From positions 1-64,000 of the forward strand of contig NZ_JADYUF010000009.1 in assembly GCF_021531655.1 (NCBI RefSeq): 64,000 nt of DNA. Direction: 5' to 3'. Within the stretch, counting starts at the first letter, position 1. The number at the start of each line of letters is the position of its first letter. This DNA comes from Leyella stercorea (GTDB taxonomy: Bacteria; Bacteroidota; Bacteroidia; Bacteroidales; Bacteroidaceae). Positions 1 to 8,741 of this stretch are shown here, one piece after another. A model generated the notes under the pieces. That model did no database searches. It saw only the letters and a list, made by a program, of their open reading frames with translations, and was not told the DNA's origin. A program made the position numbers and the translations under genes.

Positions 1-1123
1 CGGCACAACCATTGGAGCCACCAAGCGAAACGTATGTGTCTGCACTGCATGACATGTGGTCAACAAAAGCGAGAAAGTTATCAATGGCATTGTCTGTGAA
101 TTGAACTTCATTCGTGGCGAATAGTTTTGTCCAACTGGTAATACATTCTTGCTTGAAGTCTGTAATACCATGCCAAGGCATATCAGACAAGAACCTCTTT
201 GCTGCCGAATCTATACAGGGTTTAGAGTCCAATCCAATATTATGCTTTACAGCAGATGCCATAATGCCATAGTATATGGAAGCCGCTTCTTTCTCGTTGA
301 AGTTGACTCTATCTGTTTTTGCAAAGGATGATAAAGCTTCATGTCCCTCATGGATGAACTTGTCAAGCACTCCTATGTATCTATTTTGCCGAGCCATGCT
401 TTCACGTTTGGCTTCGGCTTCTTGCCGAGCCTTTTCTTTTGTTTCTTTCTCCTTACGTGCTTCCACTCGTCTCCATGCGTCTGTCATTTCTGGCTCCTGC
501 CAAATGGCATTCCAACGAGCCTTCAAATCATTGTACATTTCCATAAGTGTAGTATTATAACTTTTGGCACTGGCGAGTTCTTCCTTCGCATGGACAAGTT
601 GATTAGTCACTCGCTCCACAGCCTTCTCGTCAAGTTGAGAGATGCGTTGTTTGACTTTGTTGTTTTCTGTCTTTAGCGCATCATTCTCGGCACGAAGTGA
701 CTTGTTCTCCTCTATCTGCTTATTGAGATTCTGCATATAGTAAGTGTACGTCTTGTTGACAGACTTGCGTACACCTTCATTCTGCTTGTCACGTTCTGCA
801 TTGATGGCTGCAACAAGAGCTTTGATAGCTGCGTTAATGTTGTTTACACGCTCCTCACGCCATGCCTTTTGTCCGATAAGAGCAGGAATAGGGATGGCAA
901 GTTCTTTCTTTACGGCATTCATCGCTTCTTGAACAGGAGCCTTGATGTTGAGAAAAGGAATGGTCAGCTCCTTCTTGTCGATTATGGCAAGTACAGCATA
1001 CTTCTCCACTTTGTCAAGAGCGACTTTCGCCTGACGTTCAGCTTCAAGCACCACCTTGTTCTTATGCTTGCGTCCTCGTTTCTCTTCCTCTGAAAGTTCA
1101 TCATAGGAGAAGCCTCTTGCCAA
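1..1123 (-). pseudogene. C-terminal part of a putative mobilization (MobV/Pre-like) coiled-coil protein, cut by the window edge
   Basis: On the minus strand one frame stays open from about 1123 to the window edge (about 374 codons). The first two thirds are charged and heptad-rich, typical of a coiled coil. A globular tail follows with motifs such as YYGIMASAVKH and DMPWHGITDFK. No ATG in frame lies near the 5' end: the first in-frame Met is about 50 codons in, and the frame opens inside a terminator hairpin. That suggests the N-terminal catalytic domain has been lost. A long coiled coil after a relaxase domain is typical of Bacteroidales mobilization proteins, and the relic transfer genes nearby fit. 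The assignment is inference; no relaxase motif is present in what can be seen. A TTG or internal ATG start of a shorter intact protein is the alternative. Confidence 0.35.
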
Positions 1124-1126
1124 GCC

Positions 1127-1176
1127 ATAAAAAATCCCATTAAGTGCTATCACAATAATATGCACTTAATGGGATT
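1127..1176 (-). terminator. Perfect 15-bp hairpin terminator after the DUF6261 gene
   Basis: AATCCCATTAAGTGC at 1133-1147 is the exact reverse complement of 1162-1176, with a 14-nt loop. Read on the minus strand it is followed by a run of six T. It lies about 23 bp beyond the stop of the DUF6261 gene, as expected of an intrinsic terminator. The open frame of the truncated mobilization-like gene begins inside this structure. Confidence 0.75.
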
Positions 1177-1198: not shown

Positions 1199-2026
1199 TT
1201 AGCCTTCAATTTCAACACTCGGTGGAGTTGTGCCACCACTGGTAGTGCCACCTGTCGTACCTCCTGTTGAGCCTCCAGTAGAACCTCCACTTGTTGTTCC
1301 GCCAGTAGTACCACTTGTCTGAGAAGAGCCAGACTTCTGACCTATAACTTCGCGTTTGTAGTGAACAATCTCTGTATTCACATAGTCAATGAAGCTAAGA
1401 TACTTGCTGTCGCCCTCTATCAAAGCATAAGCATTCACAAACTTCACCAACTGGCGGTAAGCCTCATCGCTTGCCTTGCGTGATGCTTTTAATGCACCAA
1501 CAGCCTTTGCCATACGCTCGTCTGTGCGTGTTGATGTCAATGTGCGTACTTTTTCGTTGGCTGCTTTCAGAGCGGTAACGAATGCACCAAGTGAAAGTGT
1601 TTGAACCTCGCTTGAATACTTCTTTTCCAAGTCATCGATAAAGTTCATCAACAATCCCGTTTCCTTGTCAAGTTGCATCTTTGGGTCGATGGCATAGTCC
1701 TTGATGTGTTGCGTCAGAACCTTTGCTGCTTTTGCCATGTTCTCCACAGGCAGATTCTTGAAGCCATTAACAGCCTTCTTGTAACCGCTGTAAAGTCCGT
1801 CACGCTCAGCATCGGCAGTAGCAATGTCATCGGTCAACATACTTTTTTGCGAGATTTTCAAGTCCTCATCCTCTTGTTCCTTGGCGGTCTTTAGCGAGAC
1901 AATCTGTGCGCTGAGCTTACTCTTTACATTCGCATCGGCCTCAGCACGTGCCAACACGTTTGAAATGAACAGAAAATGTGCGCCGTTGTTTAGACGCTCC
2001 AAGCTAAGAGTTCCAATTTCGCTCAT
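1199..2026 (-). CDS. DUF6261 family protein with a Gly/Ser/Thr-rich tail
   Basis: The product is 275 aa with no signal peptide. It is helical throughout (residues 1-230), and the N-terminus (LERLNNGAHFLF) is typical of the Bacteroidales DUF6261 family, whose function is unknown. The last 45 residues are a low-complexity tail of repeated GGTT, GGST and TSGG blocks ending in PPSVEIEG, which should be an unstructured linker. The gene stands alone, with a strong hairpin terminator 23 bp after its stop and a 620-bp non-coding region upstream. DUF6261 genes commonly sit in accessory DNA, and this copy neighbours relics of conjugative elements. The family call is fairly sure; no role can be given. 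Confidence 0.75.
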   Translation of the reverse strand: MSEIGTLSLERLNNGAHFLFISNVLARAEADANVKSKLSAQIVSLKTAKEQEDEDLKISQKSMLTDDIATADAERDGLYSGYKKAVNGFKNLPVENMAKAAKVLTQHIKDYAIDPKMQLDKETGLLMNFIDDLEKKYSSEVQTLSLGAFVTALKAANEKVRTLTSTRTDERMAKAVGALKASRKASDEAYRQLVKFVNAYALIEGDSKYLSFIDYVNTEIVHYKREVIGQKSGSSQTSGTTGGTTSGGSTGGSTGGTTGGTTSGGTTPPSVEIEG

Positions 2027-2183: not shown

Positions 2184-2235
2184 AAACAGCGTTTCTTGCA
2201 TCATACCGTATGGAGTAATGCAAGAAACGCTGTTT
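2184..2235. repeat. 17-bp perfect inverted repeat with an 18-nt loop
   Basis: AAACAGCGTTTCTTGCA at 2184-2200 is repeated exactly in inverse at 2219-2235. The loop itself contains ATAC-C-GTAT, so the arms could extrude further. No T-tract follows on either strand, so it is not an obvious terminator. It lies between a divergent pair of accessory genes and could be a protein-binding site or the scar of a small mobile element. Confidence 0.75.
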
Positions 2236-2580: not shown

Positions 2581-2612
2581 TTTGTTTTCTAATAGAATTT
2601 TATGTATTTTTG
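2581..2612 (+). promoter_or_regulatory. Bacteroidetes-type promoter of the GIY-YIG/HIRAN operon
   Basis: TTTG at 2581-2584 and TATTTTTG at 2605-2612 are spaced by 20 bp, matching the TTTG-N19/21-TAnnTTTG consensus of the primary sigma factor in Bacteroidetes. The start codon is 36 bp downstream of the -7 box. It implies that the three-gene operon is transcribed from its own promoter. Confidence 0.7.
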
Positions 2613-2648
2613 CACTGAATTTATAAACAACACAAAAAAATAAAGGCT

Positions 2649-4685
2649 ATGCAGAAAAAGTGGACTAAAGAAACCGTTTTTGAAGAAAGTAAGAAATATT
2701 CTTCAAGATCCGAGTTCAAGAAAAACAAATCAGGTGCATTTCGTATTGCGTATATGAACGGATGGTTGGACGAAATGATATGGTTAGTGCATCCGACTGC
2801 CAAACCTGTCAAATGGACAAAAGAGGCAGTTTTTGAAGAGTCAAAAAAACATTCTACGGTTACGGAATTTATGAATAATGCCGTAACAGCATACTCTGTT
2901 GCAAAAAATAATAAATGGTTAGCTGAAATGATTTGGTTAGCCCCAAGTAAGCGTAAGCCTTCTGGTTATTGGAAAATTAAAGAGAATGTAATAAAGGAGT
3001 CTAAAAAGTATAATTCGGTTACGGAATTTCAAAGAGCGAATAGTCGGGCTTTTGATTCTGCAAAAATCAATGGGTGGCTTGATGAAATGGATTGGTTGTC
3101 AAAAACAAACAGGAAACCTGCTGGTTATTGGAAAGATAAAAACAACGTATTTGAGGAGTCGCATAAATACAGTTATAGGGTAGATTTTTGTGAAGGATGC
3201 TATCTTGCCTATATCACAGCCAAGAGAAACGGATGGCTGGATGAAATGGATTGGTTATTGAAGGCGAACAGAAAAGAGAAAGGGTATTGGAACGTAAAGG
3301 CAAATGTATTTGCTGAAGCTCAAAAATACCAATATAAGAGTGATTTCCAACGTAAATCTCCGTCTGCATATGCATCGGCAAGACTACATAATTGGCTCTC
3401 TGAAATAAAATTTGACCCTAAAGGTTCAAAAGGAGACCCACGAGGCCCTATACATATAGTGTATGTATATATAGATGAGAAAAACAAATATGCTTATGTT
3501 GGCGCAACCAATGATATTAAGCGTAGAGATAATGAACATAGAAATCATACAAATGATGCCGTCTACAAATATTTCCAAGATAAAGGGGTACAAGTTCCGA
3601 AATATAAAATTTTATTAGAAGGGCTTACTCTTGTTGAGAGACAGAGAGAAGAACGGTTACAATCATTGTATTATCGTGATGTCTTGCATTACATGTTGAT
3701 TAACAATATTAATCTAACAGGTGAAAATGTGGGTTCCTTAGGAGCATTAATAAAGAAATGGACAAAGAAAGCAGTATTACGTGAAGCAGAAAAATATAAA
3801 ACACCAACAGAGTTCTTTACGAAATCTGCTGGTGCGTATGATGCTGCTTTAAAATTTAAAATGATGAACAAGGATACATTTCCTTGGTTTTATAGTAAGC
3901 GCATGCCACCACGCTGGTGGAATGTAAAAGAACATGTGTTTGAAGAATCCAAAAAATATAAGACATGGAATGAATTTTTTCAGAAATCACCAGCTGCTCA
4001 TTTTTCTGCAAGGAAACATAAGTGGGAAAATGAAATGACATGGTTGCTCCGTGACCGAGCTCCTCAAAGTTATTGGCAAAATGAAGAAAATGTGATAGAA
4101 GAGTCTAAAAAGTATTCTACCAAAACAGACTTTTTCAAAGGTTGCCATGCTGCTTATGATTATGCAGTCAAAAATAATCTATGGGAGAAAATGCCTTGGA
4201 TAAAAACTAAGGTGAAAGAGCATGGTTATTGGACAAAAGAGCGTGTATTCGAGGAAGGTGCCAAATACTCAACCAAAATGGAATTTAAAAGAAGTGCATC
4301 AACAGCTTATTCTTTAGCGACAAAAAACAATTGGATAGATGAAATGGAGTGGGCTGTTTCTGATGCCAAGCCACAGGGATTTTGGCAAAACAAACAGAAC
4401 GTGATAGATGAATCACATAAATATTCTTCACGAAGTGAATTCAGATGGGGCACTCCAAGTGCCTATAGGTCAGCTATAGATAATGGGTGGATAGATGAAA
4501 TGGATTGGCTGAAGCGTCCGCAAAATTATAATTTAAAGTGGACTCATGAAAATGTATTCATAGAATCCCATAAGTATGACTCTCGCAGTGCATTTAAAAA
4601 AGGCAGCCCATCAGCATACCGAGTAGCTAATACAAATGGATGGTTAATTGAAATGATATGGTTGAATAAAAAGAATGATAAATAA
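2649..4685 (+). CDS. GIY-YIG nuclease embedded in eleven ~50-residue DNA-binding-like repeats
   Basis: The product is 678 aa, predicted cytoplasmic. Residues 256-369 form a GIY-YIG nuclease domain: VYVY at 271-274, YVG at 283-285, the RR pair at 292-293, EH at 296-297, and a later acidic helix (VERQREE near 330). On both sides lie copies of one repeat: five at 1-255 and six at 370-678. Each is 50-53 residues and reads roughly W-x3-NVFEESKKY-x3-EF-x6-AY-x2-A-x3-GWLDEM-x-WL. Repeats 6 and 8 are the most diverged. Similar repeats occur beside phage and mobile GIY-YIG nucleases, where they are thought to bind DNA. The gene opens an operon: it overlaps the HIRAN gene by 11 bp. It is much more AT-rich than the chromosome to the right. 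It could be a selfish endonuclease or a defence effector; no intron or interrupted host gene is visible. Confidence 0.85.
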   Translation: MQKKWTKETVFEESKKYSSRSEFKKNKSGAFRIAYMNGWLDEMIWLVHPTAKPVKWTKEAVFEESKKHSTVTEFMNNAVTAYSVAKNNKWLAEMIWLAPSKRKPSGYWKIKENVIKESKKYNSVTEFQRANSRAFDSAKINGWLDEMDWLSKTNRKPAGYWKDKNNVFEESHKYSYRVDFCEGCYLAYITAKRNGWLDEMDWLLKANRKEKGYWNVKANVFAEAQKYQYKSDFQRKSPSAYASARLHNWLSEIKFDPKGSKGDPRGPIHIVYVYIDEKNKYAYVGATNDIKRRDNEHRNHTNDAVYKYFQDKGVQVPKYKILLEGLTLVERQREERLQSLYYRDVLHYMLINNINLTGENVGSLGALIKKWTKKAVLREAEKYKTPTEFFTKSAGAYDAALKFKMMNKDTFPWFYSKRMPPRWWNVKEHVFEESKKYKTWNEFFQKSPAAHFSARKHKWENEMTWLLRDRAPQSYWQNEENVIEESKKYSTKTDFFKGCHAAYDYAVKNNLWEKMPWIKTKVKEHGYWTKERVFEEGAKYSTKMEFKRSASTAYSLATKNNWIDEMEWAVSDAKPQGFWQNKQNVIDESHKYSSRSEFRWGTPSAYRSAIDNGWIDEMDWLKRPQNYNLKWTHENVFIESHKYDSRSAFKKGSPSAYRVANTNGWLIEMIWLNKKNDK

Positions 4686-5892
4686 GAACGATATGAATGA
4701 TATAAATTTTGATATAGCAAAGCATTGGCTTCCTGTTAGCGAAAAGCAGGGAAGTATAGAAAAAGACACTTTAAGAATAAAGGTGTCTGGTGTAAATTTT
4801 CACACAAAGCCAGAAGCTGACAGCTGGGGGGTCTTTACTGGTTGTATTAAACCTGAGCCAAGCAACCCATATGATTCTAATGCTATTGGTTTCTATAAAT
4901 CTGATGGACAACTTTTGGGCTATGTGCAAAAAGAGTTACAAGATTATGTAAACCAATTTACCAAAGGACGTGAATTGGACTGTATAATCTCTGTTGCTCC
5001 ATTCGTTCCTAAGGATAAAAAGGTATGTAACCAAGCTTATGCTACCATCCTTAAATTTTTTGAGGATGATATAGAGTATGCAACAGAAATGATAAATAGG
5101 GTTACGGAGGATGTTGGTCATGATACTTTAGTAGAAATGACTCATTTTGAGAATGTATTACCTTCACTTGATATTTCCCATACAAAAGTTGAAGACATTG
5201 AAGAAAAAGACGAGGTAAGTAATACAATCTTTAGATATGACGAATTCTATAAGTTTCCTCAAAGCGACAAAACAGGAAAGAAATCTTATGATACCCTTAC
5301 TGTAAGAATAGAAGATGCAGATTGGTATTTTTCCAGAAAAAAGTGGCAAGCAGGAGTGTTCAGTGGATATGTTGATGTTGTGCATTTGGAAAGTCTAAAC
5401 AAGTATGGCATTTTTCGAGAGGACAATACTCTTGTCGGTTGTCCTGATAGTTTTGACTTTGATGATGAGATTCATGAGTTTTCGGAAGGACACCGAATCT
5501 ATTGTATATTTCAACTTGTTCCACATATAGACAGAGATACTTCATGTATTGATATAGCAGGAAAGGCAGTTTTAATCAAGTTTTTTGAAAATGAGAAGAA
5601 CTATGCCCATAAGTTATTTGAAGATACAAGAACACGACTTGTCAAAAATGCAATAGCTGGGTATAAGAGATTTACTGATAAAAAGGAAGAATTAGAGCTT
5701 TGTGATATTAAGGTGATGTTAAGTTGGTCATTTGATACTCGCCGATACACATTTGGAGACAATGGTACGACTTATCTTGATGACAATGGAAAGCCTCAGA
5801 AACCCAAAAGTGGGTGTGCTACACCAATAGCAACACTTGTCTTGTGTCTGTCCCTATGCTGTTTATTGTACTTGGTGGCAGTTATTGGTTAA
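4675..5892 (+). CDS. Tandem HIRAN-like domain protein with a C-terminal membrane anchor
   Basis: The product is 405 aa. Residues 31-141 resemble a HIRAN domain, with the hallmark stretch PEPSNPYDSNAI followed by GQLLGY. HIRAN domains bind DNA ends or damaged DNA and usually sit on Rad5/HLTF-type helicases. Residues 206-316 are a second, decayed copy: the same order is visible (DTL...GVFSGY...VL-IKFFE), but the NPYD and NAI residues are gone. A single hydrophobic helix at about 383-403 ends the protein, so it is probably tail-anchored with the HIRAN domains in the cytoplasm. The start at 4675 overlaps the nuclease gene, implying translational coupling; an ATG at 4693 is an alternative. No helicase or nuclease motif is present in this protein. 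The first domain call is good, the second is inference from internal similarity. Confidence 0.7.
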   Translation: MINKNDMNDINFDIAKHWLPVSEKQGSIEKDTLRIKVSGVNFHTKPEADSWGVFTGCIKPEPSNPYDSNAIGFYKSDGQLLGYVQKELQDYVNQFTKGRELDCIISVAPFVPKDKKVCNQAYATILKFFEDDIEYATEMINRVTEDVGHDTLVEMTHFENVLPSLDISHTKVEDIEEKDEVSNTIFRYDEFYKFPQSDKTGKKSYDTLTVRIEDADWYFSRKKWQAGVFSGYVDVVHLESLNKYGIFREDNTLVGCPDSFDFDDEIHEFSEGHRIYCIFQLVPHIDRDTSCIDIAGKAVLIKFFENEKNYAHKLFEDTRTRLVKNAIAGYKRFTDKKEELELCDIKVMLSWSFDTRRYTFGDNGTTYLDDNGKPQKPKSGCATPIATLVLCLSLCCLLYLVAVIG

Positions 5893-5939
5893 TATGTATG
5901 AAGAGGTAAGTTTAGATTAAAAATTACGACCCGAAAAAT

Positions 5940-6641
5940 ATGGAAGAGAATAAAATAAACGAAATTGGCAAGATGAGTTTGCCAGCCAAAGTTTGTTGCA
6001 TAATAAAAGCTATTGGTAGCTATTGGTCTTTTGCAGCTCCATTTGTAAGTGCCTTATCCGATTTTCAAAATTACAAACAGAATCGATTGATAGAAGATGT
6101 TCTTAAAAAAGCATTTACAATGATAGAAGAACTTGATAATAGAGTTCGTAATGTGGAATATATGAATAGTCAAGAATTTATCTGTGATTTATTACGAACT
6201 GTAGATTATTCAAAAAATGAAATAGATGAAAATAAAAGAATTATGTACGCAAAATATTTAACAGCATGTTGCCACATTGGTAATGCAGAGAATAGATGCA
6301 AACGTATGTTCTTGGAAATAATGGAAAAAATTGATGGATTAGATTTCTATATTTTAAAGTCTTTAAGAATCACTTTTGATGGTAAAGATGCTATTGAAAG
6401 AATCTATAGTAAGTACAACGAAGAATATAGTAGCGATGTTACGAAGAAAGAGGTTATGAACCACTTCTACTATCTAACTTCACTTGGTTTAATTGAGATG
6501 TCTGACCAAGAAGAAGTTGAAGCATTTTTGCAAAAATATAAAGAAAAAATATCTAAAAGTACGTTTAGAAAGGCTCATTTATATCAAAGAACAACTTTGG
6601 GAGATGATTTATACCATTTTATAAATAAAATCAATCCATAA
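5940..6641 (+). CDS. Unknown protein of the nuclease operon, possible winged-helix C-terminus
   Basis: The product is 233 aa and I do not recognise its family. Residues 14-42 form a moderately hydrophobic, possibly membrane-associated stretch. Residues 45-160 are helical and charged. From about 165 the pattern KKEVMNHFYYLTSLGLIE followed by TTLGDDLYHFI resembles a winged helix-turn-helix of the kind that ends many toxin-antitoxin and defence proteins. It starts 47 bp after the HIRAN gene on the same strand with equally AT-rich DNA, so it is probably the third gene of that operon. Its stop is followed within 3 bp by a relic of a conjugation gene, so the operon's right edge coincides with a recombination junction. 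It may regulate or restrain the nuclease; this is only an inference from position. Confidence 0.55.
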   Translation: MEENKINEIGKMSLPAKVCCIIKAIGSYWSFAAPFVSALSDFQNYKQNRLIEDVLKKAFTMIEELDNRVRNVEYMNSQEFICDLLRTVDYSKNEIDENKRIMYAKYLTACCHIGNAENRCKRMFLEIMEKIDGLDFYILKSLRITFDGKDAIERIYSKYNEEYSSDVTKKEVMNHFYYLTSLGLIEMSDQEEVEAFLQKYKEKISKSTFRKAHLYQRTTLGDDLYHFINKINP

Positions 6642-6643
6642 AA

Positions 6644-6892
6644 TGGAACAGCACGGCGTTCCAGCCTAACGGTCGCTATCGGTTGGAAAACGAGAAGTTC
6701 CGTCTTTACTACACATTGGCGAGCACAGAGACCTTGACCTTGACCTTGGTAGTGGAGGAAAACTTCGGCAAGTTATACGAAATGATGTTCAGTTTCAATG
6801 ACACAGATGATGATGAAGTGGAGGAGTTTACGAGAAGTACCAACAACTCGGTAGTGTATGAGGTTGATTATATTGTTAGCTTAACTACAGCC
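6644..6892 (+). pseudogene. C-terminal remnant of conjugal transfer protein TraQ (DUF3872)
   Basis: The plus-strand frame from 6644 reads FQPNGRYRLENEKFRLYYT and then FGKLYEMMFSFNDTDDDE. This resembles the end of TraQ (DUF3872) from CTnDOT-like conjugative transposons as I recall that family. The beginning of the gene, including signal peptide and first strands, is missing: the frame is closed by a stop just upstream. The scrap runs head-on into the integrase remnant. The base composition is richer in G and C than the operon to its left, so a junction between DNA of different origin lies at about 6642. Confidence 0.5.
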
Positions 6893-7226
6893 ACTTGGAG
6901 TTCTTCTTGTCCGCCAGTTTCTTGAAGTAGGCGAGGAACTCTCCTTTCATCTTCTCCTTGTCGAAGAAATCGTAACGCTCGTTGACGATAGCCTCGAAGC
7001 GACGGCAGCGTATCGCCTCGGCTCTTGCCGTAAGGTTGAGGTTATACTTCTGTTCCATCTGGTTCTTCGGCTTGGCATAGATGTAGATGCCAAGCGACTC
7101 ATGGCGGATGACTTTCATCGTGCTCTCATCACGATAGCCTGGATAATAGTCAAGATAATAGGACAGCATGCGTCCGTCCTTGATTTTGCGTGTACGCAAT
7201 GATATGGTCTTGCAGATATTACTCAT
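6885..7226 (-). pseudogene. N-terminal fragment of a tyrosine integrase of a Bacteroidales mobile element
   Basis: 113 codons from an ATG read as the arm-type DNA-binding region of a Bacteroidales tyrosine recombinase: KTISLRTRKIKDGRMLSYYLDYYPGYR at the start and a FDKEKMKGEFLAYFKKLADKKNSKW stretch at the end, shown here in parts because the segment is contiguous. Intact integrases continue past NSKW for about 300 residues with the core-binding and catalytic domains. Here the frame stops two codons later, where it meets the TraQ remnant. The catalytic R-H-R-Y residues are therefore absent and it cannot recombine DNA. A deletion fusing two distant parts of an integrated conjugative element explains both scraps. 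Confidence 0.7.
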
Positions 7227-7258
7227 AGTTGTATTGATTTATTGATGAATATTCATGG

Positions 7259-7275
7259 TGAAGTGTCTCTTCACG
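7259..7275. repeat. Short hairpin between the integrase remnant and the HTH gene
   Basis: GTGAAG at 7259-7264 and CTTCAC at 7270-7275 form a 6-bp stem with a 5-nt loop in the 128-bp gap. There is no T-tract, so a terminator role is weakly supported. Confidence 0.35.
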
Positions 7276-7354
7276 GCTGCAAAATAACTGAATGATACTT
7301 CCGTGACTCCAATTATTTGCAGTCATTGATGGATAATGCTGAAATCATTTGAAA

Positions 7355-8305
7355 TCACAGTCCTTTAGCAGCTCTTTCTGCCATTGCACGCTCCACATCC
7401 GTCTTCAAAAGCAGGTTCTTTACACCCACTTTTACCTTACTGATATGGTGAACTCTCACTATATGGCAGATGTTGGCACTTGTCAGACCATACAACTGCT
7501 GCACTTGTTCGGTGGTATAATAGTTGTCATCGCTCATGAGGTCAGTCCTGCGCAGTTCTTCAAGATGTTCCTTGGAATAATAGGTGCGACCATACTCACG
7601 TTTGGTGGGTATCTTATGACGATATGCATATGCCCTGAGTGCCGACTTGCTCATACTGAAAGCATCCTCTACATCATCAGCAGTCACCCATTCCGTGATG
7701 CTGTTGATGTCAACGGCAGTACCGAAGAACTCATCAATATGCCGTTTGCTGTAATAGTTCTTGCCAGCGATACGGCACATCGGTATCTGGTTGCGCTTGG
7801 CGGAGGTGTAGAGCCAAGACTTCTTGACCTTATAAATGGACATCACTTCCTCACCAGAATAATAGTCAAGCACCTCATTCTCCTCTTTCCCTTTTGTCGG
7901 TTCCTGCTTTCGTATTTGCTTTTCTGCTTTTGCCTTTTTATTGGGTTTGCTCTTGCTGGCAGGAATCACACGCTTGTAGGGATTACCCTCAAACATCTTC
8001 TCTATATCAGCCTTTCTTACGAATGCCATTCTGCTGCTCAATCTTGATGCCTTCAACTTTCCGTTAGCCACAAGTTTGTAGATATACTGTCGGGTGCATC
8101 CCATCAGAATGGCAGCTTTGGAGAAGGTAAGATACTCCTGATGTTGCAGATCCATGATTGGCTCAATACCGTTAATCAATTCCTGCTGTCTTTTCTTCCT
8201 AAGACGTTTTGCCTCTGCCTGACATTCCTCGGAACAGTATTTCTGCATACCGCTTCTTGGCACGAATGTCTTGCCACAAAATTCACATTTTCTTGTCGGT
8301 CTCAT
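7355..8305 (-). CDS. Zinc-finger protein with four excisionase-like helix-turn-helix units
   Basis: The product is 316 aa. It begins with a small zinc-binding module, C7-x2-C10-x13-C24-x3-C28, followed by a basic stretch. Four MerR/excisionase-type units follow: about 58-108 (YLTFSKAAILMGC, then YIYKLVANGKL), 146-196, 205-252 and 258-310. Each has the same order: an acidic turn, a helix pair and a short wing with KNYYS- or RTYYS-type residues before the next helix. Such proteins are found next to integrases of Bacteroidales mobile elements and are taken to be excision or directionality factors. Here the adjacent integrase is truncated, so any excision role is probably lost, while DNA binding may persist. 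A canonical promoter lies 225 bp upstream, giving a leader of about 220 nt. The family call is good; the function is inferred. Confidence 0.7.
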   Translation of the reverse strand: MRPTRKCEFCGKTFVPRSGMQKYCSEECQAEAKRLRKKRQQELINGIEPIMDLQHQEYLTFSKAAILMGCTRQYIYKLVANGKLKASRLSSRMAFVRKADIEKMFEGNPYKRVIPASKSKPNKKAKAEKQIRKQEPTKGKEENEVLDYYSGEEVMSIYKVKKSWLYTSAKRNQIPMCRIAGKNYYSKRHIDEFFGTAVDINSITEWVTADDVEDAFSMSKSALRAYAYRHKIPTKREYGRTYYSKEHLEELRRTDLMSDDNYYTTEQVQQLYGLTSANICHIVRVHHISKVKVGVKNLLLKTDVERAMAERAAKGL

Positions 8306-8529
8306 ACTCTATGATATTGCTATGTTCTACATACTTTGAGTATTCCACCTATGGAGTAAACGGAAGTGAACCATTGACAACCTTTGTCAACCCAATCCAC
8401 GATATAACGCTTTTTGCCTATCAGCTTCAAATCTGTCCTTCATCGTAACCACTCGTAAACCCTTGTCAACTACGTTCACAATATGACAAAATAAAAGCTC
8501 CGCAAATTCTCCACGGTAGAAATACGCTG

Positions 8530-8561
8530 CAAAAATATGTGGAAAATCGGGAACTGCCAAA
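8530..8561 (-). promoter_or_regulatory. Promoter of the zinc-finger/HTH gene
   Basis: Read on the minus strand, TTTG (8558-8561) and TATTTTTG (8530-8537) are separated by 20 bp, a full match to the Bacteroidetes promoter. The start codon is about 225 nt downstream, so the transcript has a long leader that includes the 8374-8390 palindrome. Confidence 0.65.
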
Positions 8562-8609
8562 AAGCACTCAGAAAGTATTAAAAAACAAAGAGTGTTGAAA
8601 ATCAATACT

Positions 8610-8646
8610 TTATGGTTAGTTAGTCATAGTAAGTTATGGTTAGTTA
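8610..8646. repeat. 13-bp direct repeat upstream of the TonB receptor gene
   Basis: TTATGGTTAGTTA occurs at 8610-8622 and again at 8634-8646, a centre-to-centre distance of 24 bp. The pair lies about 95 bp upstream of the receptor start and could be an operator for a dimeric regulator or an integrase arm site. Confidence 0.5.
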
Positions 8647-8741
8647 TAAGGCTCTAAATACAACCAGAAAAACATTCGTCTATGAAACAAAACCATTATA
8701 ACCAATCATTTGAGAAGAATGATATAATATATACTGCAACC

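Follow-up and report, generated by a model that had tools for sequence, protein, structure and literature searches.

Free-standing GIY-YIG homing endonucleases of phages combine a GIY-YIG nuclease domain with DNA-binding repeats. In the literature searched for this study (titles, abstract beginnings and passages, with most subscription papers outside it), SNIPE is described as a GIY-YIG nuclease that is restrained at the inner membrane and becomes toxic once its membrane segment is lost (Nature 2026, PMC13190303). Binding to DNA ends has been reported for HIRAN domains (PMC8262856), which have also been proposed as sensors of phage DNA ends, in HipN/HipL (PMC8262856) as well as in diDNase-HIRAN-HipA clusters (PMC11706625). 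Abi-alpha, or DUF4393 (PF14337), is an experimentally shown abortive-infection protein that acts on phage (PMC6356687). Here, we analysed a three-gene operon in a 64,000-nucleotide stretch of Leyella stercorea DNA (contig NZ_JADYUF010000009.1, positions 1 to 64,000, referred to as the window), which encodes a modular GIY-YIG nuclease (gene 1), a tandem HIRAN protein with a predicted membrane tail (gene 2), and a helical protein that is likely a remote Abi-alpha relative (gene 3). We interpret the operon as a module directed against phages or plasmids, in which a tail-anchored reader of DNA ends would hold a sequence-reading nuclease at the membrane, accompanied by an Abi-like third protein, and we assign this interpretation a probability of roughly 0.45. 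A preliminary description of the locus had already leaned towards defence; this flavour was supported overall, and its interpretation as a whole in part.

Gene 1 encodes a GIY-YIG nuclease with a modular array, as had been proposed. Its PF01541 domain scores 24.4 bits against the Pfam cut-off of 22.6 (residues 269-312) and lies between five N-terminal and six C-terminal modules, each predicted to consist of three helices. Residues Y272, Y274, Y283, G285, R293, H297, and E335 are invariant in an alignment of 61 gene-1 sequences, among which we take two tyrosines, the arginine, the histidine, and the glutamate to be the catalytic residues of the GIY-YIG fold. The phage family phrog_20046 matches gene 1 at 5e-72 over five stretches of repeats. 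The nuclease domain resembles that of UvrC (template modelling score 0.58 by target, Foldseek E 5); the fold search with the whole model returned UvrC for this domain, together with long helical proteins by chance, and the search against the PDB by sequence gave nothing meaningful. The AlphaFold model has a mean predicted local distance difference test (pLDDT) score of 81.9 and a predicted template modelling score of 0.25; the modules are therefore well modelled, and their relative arrangement is not. We split the modules on a W-EM-W signature in combination with the model, some borders being placed by eye. Matches to CARF and DUF6301 both overlie the repeats, the latter below its cut-off, and were discarded as spurious.

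The residues at module positions 17 and 21 vary between modules but are conserved within each module across 41 orthologues; for the 9 modules used out of 11, the within-slot entropy is about 1.0, compared with 2.6-2.9 overall. In the same set, positions 9, 12, 15, 38, and 41 drift more. We infer from this conservation that positions 17 and 21 could constitute a base-reading code for one conserved DNA target; a fixed target would give such a slot-wise pattern, and shared descent alone also lowers the entropy within modules.

Gene 2 had been described as a tandem HIRAN protein with a membrane tail, which holds for the tandem arrangement and the predicted tail, the second HIRAN domain being degenerate and having lost the NPYD motif. 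The first domain aligns with the HIRAN structures of human HLTF, including the NPYD-NAI stretch (profile match, E 1e-4), and is the only one over the Pfam cut-off. Undetected by Pfam, the second became visible in a profile-to-profile alignment of the two halves of gene 2 (hhalign, P 1.5e-12, probability 97.7%). The protein ends in KSGCATPIATLVLCLSLCCLLYLVAVIG, and a C-terminal hydrophobic peak is found in 37 of the 43 gene-2 proteins listed. Relatives are few, with only 45 among 3,056 candidates, the furthest full-length ones being about 60% identical.

The start of gene 2 affects the layout of the operon. The mechanical open reading frame (ORF) opens at 4675 (4675-5892, 405 aa), whereas 20 of 23 aligned gene-2 rows use the methionine at 4693 (MNDI), which is likely the true start and gives 399 aa. 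Genes 1 and 2 are therefore probably separated by 7 bp, rather than overlapping by 11 bp as stated in the preliminary description, which was right about the 47 bp between genes 2 and 3. All three ORFs are intact and lie on the plus strand behind the promoter that it had noted, an exact match to the Bacteroides promoter consensus TTTG-N17..24-TAnnTTTG. The window contains 10 matches to this pattern where 2.00 are expected, and none of 100 shuffles gave as many as 10. The contrast in AT-richness with the chromosome was likewise confirmed, the G+C content being 0.33-0.37 across 2-7 kb and 0.41-0.55 from 9 kb onward.

As for gene 3, the winged-helix regulator suggested earlier finds a weak fold hint, and a remote relationship to Abi-alpha describes the protein better. 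The AlphaFold model (pLDDT 74.6) weakly suggests a C-terminal half like that of winged-helix regulators, every Foldseek E-value being above 0.2; against viral models, the matches are mostly helix-turn-helix (HTH) or MarR-like where named, all at E above 0.06. The search against the PDB by sequence gave nothing meaningful, and gene 3 itself matches nothing over the Pfam cut-offs, including Abi_alpha (PF14337). The likely link to Abi-alpha comes from its family. Three relatives carry a precomputed Abi_alpha domain, scoring 28.3, 26.9, and 29.1 bits where the cut-off is 29, and the gene-3 family aligns collinearly with Abi_alpha in hhalign at P 8.5e-4 (0.0026 once distant relatives are included) and a probability of only 24%, compared with P 0.06-0.6 for six control profiles. 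The Abi_alpha side of this alignment consisted of three over-cut-off matches from 198 genomes of the order. The relative in L049 matches Abi_alpha at 19.8 bits. Structure 3h35, reported to resemble Abi-alpha (PMC6356687), ranks 21st in the gene-3 fold search (E 0.95).

Relatives of gene 3 were found in 4 of 399 family genomes, with two weak matches in 393 order genomes, and restriction genes adjoin them at three of the four loci (L046, L047, and L048). The first of these (L046:8215-14490) is an HpaII-type cluster with a C5 methylase and HpaII, in which the gene-3 relative, Vsr, a HIRAN gene, and Fic stand in a row. In L047, the relative lies near an EcoRI-type methylase, a GmrSD-HNH protein, and T5orf172, which we take to be a GIY-YIG-like nuclease; in L048, it adjoins a homologue of the GmrSD protein of L047, cut by the contig end. 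The relative in L049 adjoins an integrase-family gene. One gene-3 relative is thus a direct neighbour of a T5orf172 gene, and one sits two genes from a HIRAN gene.

Altogether, 466 relatives of gene 1 were found, of which the best 120 were listed. Relatives occur in 24 of 398 genus genomes (E 1e-10 or better), and nine from GTDB belong to Prevotella, Segatella, and other Bacteroidales. These yielded 31 distinct bacterial loci (the genus set plus the nine GTDB loci, three being the same contigs; L104 and L107 without a passing ORF), 13 of which have a recurrent partner gene; the nuclease homologues are accordingly not always lone phage homing endonucleases. A DEDDh exonuclease gene, which PADLOC PDC-S48 matches, lies just upstream at six loci, directly at five (L084, L087, L092, L094, and L103) and via a BRCT gene at L088. 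A HIRAN gene lies just upstream at two loci, 60 bp away in L100 and with an 88-aa ORF in between in L040, although HIRAN is infrequent, at 23 places in 100 genomes. HIRAN proteins that closely resemble each other precede the modular GIY-YIG gene in L040 (9456-11087) and, in L041 (9087-11453), a DEDDh exonuclease whose BRCT match falls below the cut-off, which suggests exchangeable effector parts.

Two further small families accompany the modular nucleases. A family of 226-236 aa lies directly downstream (L088:265-945, L093:8584-9294, L095:8895-9590, and L103:2509-3201); it gave no Pfam match for the L103 member and no PADLOC or NCBIfam match for the L088 member, and our impression is that it may be PD-(D/E)XK-like. 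Another family of 252-262 aa overlaps the ends of modular GIY-YIG genes (L028:5061-5819, L030:2809-3597, and L087:9681-10442), where the two members tried gave no Pfam match and the L087 member matches a PADLOC CARF model weakly (17.9 bits).

The form of the tail links gene 2 to partners elsewhere. At four of the 31 loci (L089, L092, L094, and L095), a GC-tailed protein lies directly upstream of the nuclease, ending in KSGCLSIIVFGILLTSLIAFL and close variants. Tail anchors were predicted for 5 of 34 nuclease-adjacent ORFs; of the other ORFs (at least 100 aa), 4 of 298 had one (Fisher 8e-4). The GC form of the tail occurred in 4 of the 34 and in 0 of the 298. Without their tails, the DUF723-DEDDh proteins of L092 and L094 are 79% identical, and the L089 and L095 proteins about 55% identical, the latter two with no Pfam match over the cut-off. 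No BLAST likeness was found among these two pairs and gene 2 after removal of the tails. Three unlike bodies therefore carry one tail plan beside one nuclease family. The GC-tailed unnamed body directly upstream of modular nucleases is located at L089:6708-7751 and L095:6138-6845. A stand-alone single-HIRAN protein with a GC tail, ending in GSGCSTLILAIIILGAILQVLCK, was also observed in L042 (5171-7709), between a weakly LexA/S24-repressor-like gene and an integrase-family gene.

In the proposed mechanism, the eleven three-helix modules of gene 1 would read DNA sequence, and the first HIRAN domain of gene 2 would grip DNA ends exposed during entry or processing, in the manner of the human HLTF HIRAN domain. 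The tail of gene 2 would hold the complex to the membrane, at a distance from the chromosome, similar to the transmembrane segment of SNIPE, and the gene 1 nuclease would cut incoming phage or plasmid DNA. Gene 3 might abort the infection if cutting fails, or regulate the operon. A bolder and unlikely version would be a hard-wired, TALE-like membrane nuclease: the eleven modules around the GIY-YIG core would define one invading sequence, an exchangeable tail-anchored partner (HIRAN, DEDDh, or the third, unnamed body) would post the nuclease at the membrane for cutting that sequence on entry, and gene 3 would be an exchangeable abortive back-up, in a family with swappable partners across Bacteroidales.

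Several observations weigh against the interpretation as a defence module. A widely conserved trio is not supported: all three genes together were seen once in DNA and in no other genome searched, although a database protein (P0101) that joins genes 1 and 2 places these two side by side in a second public contig. Neither gene 2 proper nor gene 3 occurs at any of the 31 bacterial nuclease loci, and 18 of these loci have no recurrent partner. Gene-2 orthologues were absent from the 398 genus genomes (six weak HIRAN-only matches) and, by pattern scan, from the GTDB contigs. Of the 23 HIRAN places in the 100 genomes, 21 have no homologue of gene 1, gene 3, or DEDDh among the nearest two or three ORFs (20 neighbourhoods checked together, some near contig ends, and L045, as opposed to L040 and L041). 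Many of the nuclease relatives at the 31 loci are distant: among ten weaker ones scanned, two pass the GIY-YIG cut-off, seven fall below, and one is unmatched; the relative in L040 is also below the cut-off. The connection of gene 3 to Abi-alpha is borderline, with only 3 of 54 relatives bearing the precomputed domain and no Abi_alpha match in the distant relatives of L046, L047, and L048. Tail anchors were called from hydropathy only, and a scan of the flanks limited to Pfam and NCBIfam identified no known defence gene beside the operon.

The viral relatives of gene 1 raise the question of whether it is instead a homing-type or selfish nuclease that reads a single conserved site with its array and propagates its own gene by cutting, with genes 2 and 3 as passengers or helpers. 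Among 50,697 phage records, 27 contain a relative, in phages of Vibrio, Rhizobium, Burkholderia, and Prevotella; a further 17 loci, some likely duplicates, come from IMG/VR. None of these 17 loci has HIRAN or gene 3, which we count towards the defence module. No homologue of the small families was found there either, and DEDDh appears at two of them, L014 and L015, at several kb from the nuclease. Genes 2 and 3 themselves were not confirmed in IMG/VR by scans nor found in phages and plasmids by tblastn. Homing is favoured by the phage relatives, with tail anchors in 0 of the 12 adjacent ORFs at the viral loci, by the bacterial loci lacking a recurrent partner, and by the slot-wise conservation of the modules, which fits a fixed target. 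We nevertheless regard it as unlikely in view of the tightly packed recurrent partners at the other 13 bacterial loci, several of DNA-end-processing type, and of the intact partner genes here, where the nuclease shares an operon with two further genes. The module conservation would also suit a conjugative element's own exclusion module, one that cuts an entering rival, be it a specific plasmid or another conjugative element, and has nothing to do with phages. Remnants of traQ and an integrase adjoin the cassette, and the element matches a conjugative Bacteroides plasmid (95.3% over 20% of the query). Such a role appears quite unlikely to us, since gene-3 relatives lie in restriction clusters, Abi-alpha is reported to act on phage (PMC6356687), and the cassette is intact though the element has decayed.

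It is less credible still that the three genes are independent accessory genes gathered in one hotspot. No other locus with all three was seen, and contig-length matching across the three protein lists as a co-occurrence proxy (one match for genes 1 and 2, one for genes 1 and 3, none for genes 2 and 3) was no better than offsets and was dropped. On the other hand, the genes share a single promoter match with gaps of 7 and 47 bp, P0101 joins two of them, a HIRAN gene precedes the same nuclease family at two further loci, and gene 2 has the GC tail in common with nuclease-adjacent partners. Database proteins in which gene-2 or gene-3 pieces are fused to other domains (P0102 and P0055) look like assembly chimeras, as does P0095, whose sequence changes part-way; none was used. 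Very improbable, finally, is a DNA repair or recombination module serving the element itself by end processing in transfer. Repair-type domains do occur among the partners (HIRAN, DEDDh exonuclease, and BRCT), yet the patchy spread (gene 1 in 24 and gene-2 orthologues in none of the 398 genomes), the Abi-alpha-like third gene, and the predicted membrane tail speak against it.

The features of the operon and its surroundings are collected in Table 1.

Table 1. Coordinates of the operon, its domains, and the neighbouring element remnants in the window.
Feature	Position	Strand	Basis or remark
Perfect 18-nt inverted repeat	2184..2235	.	16-nt loop; about 350 bp ahead of the operon promoter
Bacteroides-type promoter match	2581..2612	+	Exact pattern; 36 bp lie between it and gene 1
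Gene 1, modular GIY-YIG nuclease, 678 aa	2649..4685	+	PF01541; phrog_20046
N-terminal array, 5 three-helix modules, residues 1-255	2649..3413	+	Repeat split and AlphaFold model
GIY-YIG nuclease domain, about residues 265-365	3441..3743	+	Pfam, conserved residues, UvrC likeness
C-terminal array, 6 three-helix modules, residues 371-671	3759..4661	+	Repeat split and AlphaFold model
Gene 2, tandem HIRAN protein with predicted C-terminal membrane tail, 399 aa	4693..5892	+	Pfam, aligned starts
First HIRAN domain, NPYD-NAI motif	4762..5070	+	PF08797, 27.9 bits against cut-off 24.7
Second, degenerate HIRAN domain without NPYD motif	5281..5604	+	hhalign of gene 2 halves
KSGC and hydrophobic C-terminal tail, predicted tail anchor	5806..5889	+	Last 28 residues; hydropathy 2.74
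Gene 3, Abi-alpha-like helical protein, winged-helix-like C-terminal half, 233 aa	5940..6641	+	Both likenesses weak
traQ remnant (conjugation gene), C-terminal 40 residues	6683..6802	+	PF12988, 2.2e-9, profile positions 93-132 of 133
Truncated integrase, arm DNA-binding domain only	6885..7226	-	PF17293; 113-aa N-terminal piece
Multi-HTH/excisionase-type element gene	7355..8305	-	PF12728 x4, TIGR01764

Among the element genes that had been called broken, TraQ and the integrase are indeed remnants; the integrase counterpart on a B. xylanisolvens plasmid (NZ_CP045613) is a longer gene of 1,122 bp. The matching stretch of the conjugative Bacteroides xylanisolvens plasmid corresponds to 6890-8662 of the window. 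The mobilization gene could not be confirmed, the left-hand frame of 388 aa (2-1165, minus strand) having no Pfam match over the cut-off and running off the window. The AT-rich island has at its left edge an intact DUF6261 gene with a Gly/Ser/Thr-rich tail (1199-2026, minus strand). Scanning the window for Rfam families and tRNAs gave no hits, so that no tRNA gene marks an insertion site there. Pfam and NCBIfam found no methyltransferase among the three operon genes and the scanned flanking genes, and a restriction-modification system was rejected since the genes scanned include no methylase partner.

If the interpretation as a defence module is true, the operon would represent a protein-only, sequence-specific bacterial defence that reads DNA through an array of repeated modules and protects its own cell via the membrane. 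It would provide a second route to SNIPE-like action, possibly a new DNA-reading code for engineering, and a concrete, testable job for bacterial HIRAN domains.

Like SNIPE as described, the operon combines a GIY-YIG nuclease with a separate DNA-binding part and a membrane restraint, both predicted in our case. SNIPE is, however, one protein with DUF4041, whereas nuclease and tail are here split over two proteins, with a repeat array and HIRAN. Membership in SNIPE was rejected, as Pfam found no DUF4041 in the operon and gene 1 has no transmembrane segment (highest hydropathy 0.76). By analogy, a separate tethering subunit would prevent self-toxicity of the nuclease as the membrane segment does in SNIPE. 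CMoRE/PD-T4-3 is likewise a defence nuclease of the GIY-YIG type whose recognition part is separate; it is reported as a single protein reading modified cytosine, with no array, HIRAN, or tail (PMC12923530). In HipN/HipL and the diDNase-HIRAN-HipA clusters, too, HIRAN neighbours a toxin or a nuclease of the DEDD type, but our operon has no HipA kinase and instead a GIY-YIG nuclease and a tandem HIRAN protein with a predicted membrane tail. A HipA-type toxin-antitoxin system was rejected for an operon in which Pfam found no Hip kinase.

HIRAN and DEDDh parts match the PADLOC models PDC-M03 and PDC-S48, the PDC-M03 match (PDC-M03B) being confined to the HIRAN stretch of gene 2 at 20.4 bits. Gene 3 resembles Abi-alpha through the collinear profile match and its three relatives at 26.9-29.1 bits; Abi-alpha is reported as a single prophage gene (PMC6356687), while gene 3, itself unmatched, is the third gene in a nuclease operon. 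Phage homing endonucleases share the GIY-YIG domain, the repeats, which in gene 1 would bind DNA, and the occurrence of gene-1 relatives in phages, and differ in that gene 1 belongs to an operon with two further genes. The literature searched, within the bounds given above, holds no description of this composition, in agreement with the preliminary description. Every part comes from or near a known family; in that literature, the combination and the theme of a tethered partner are undescribed.

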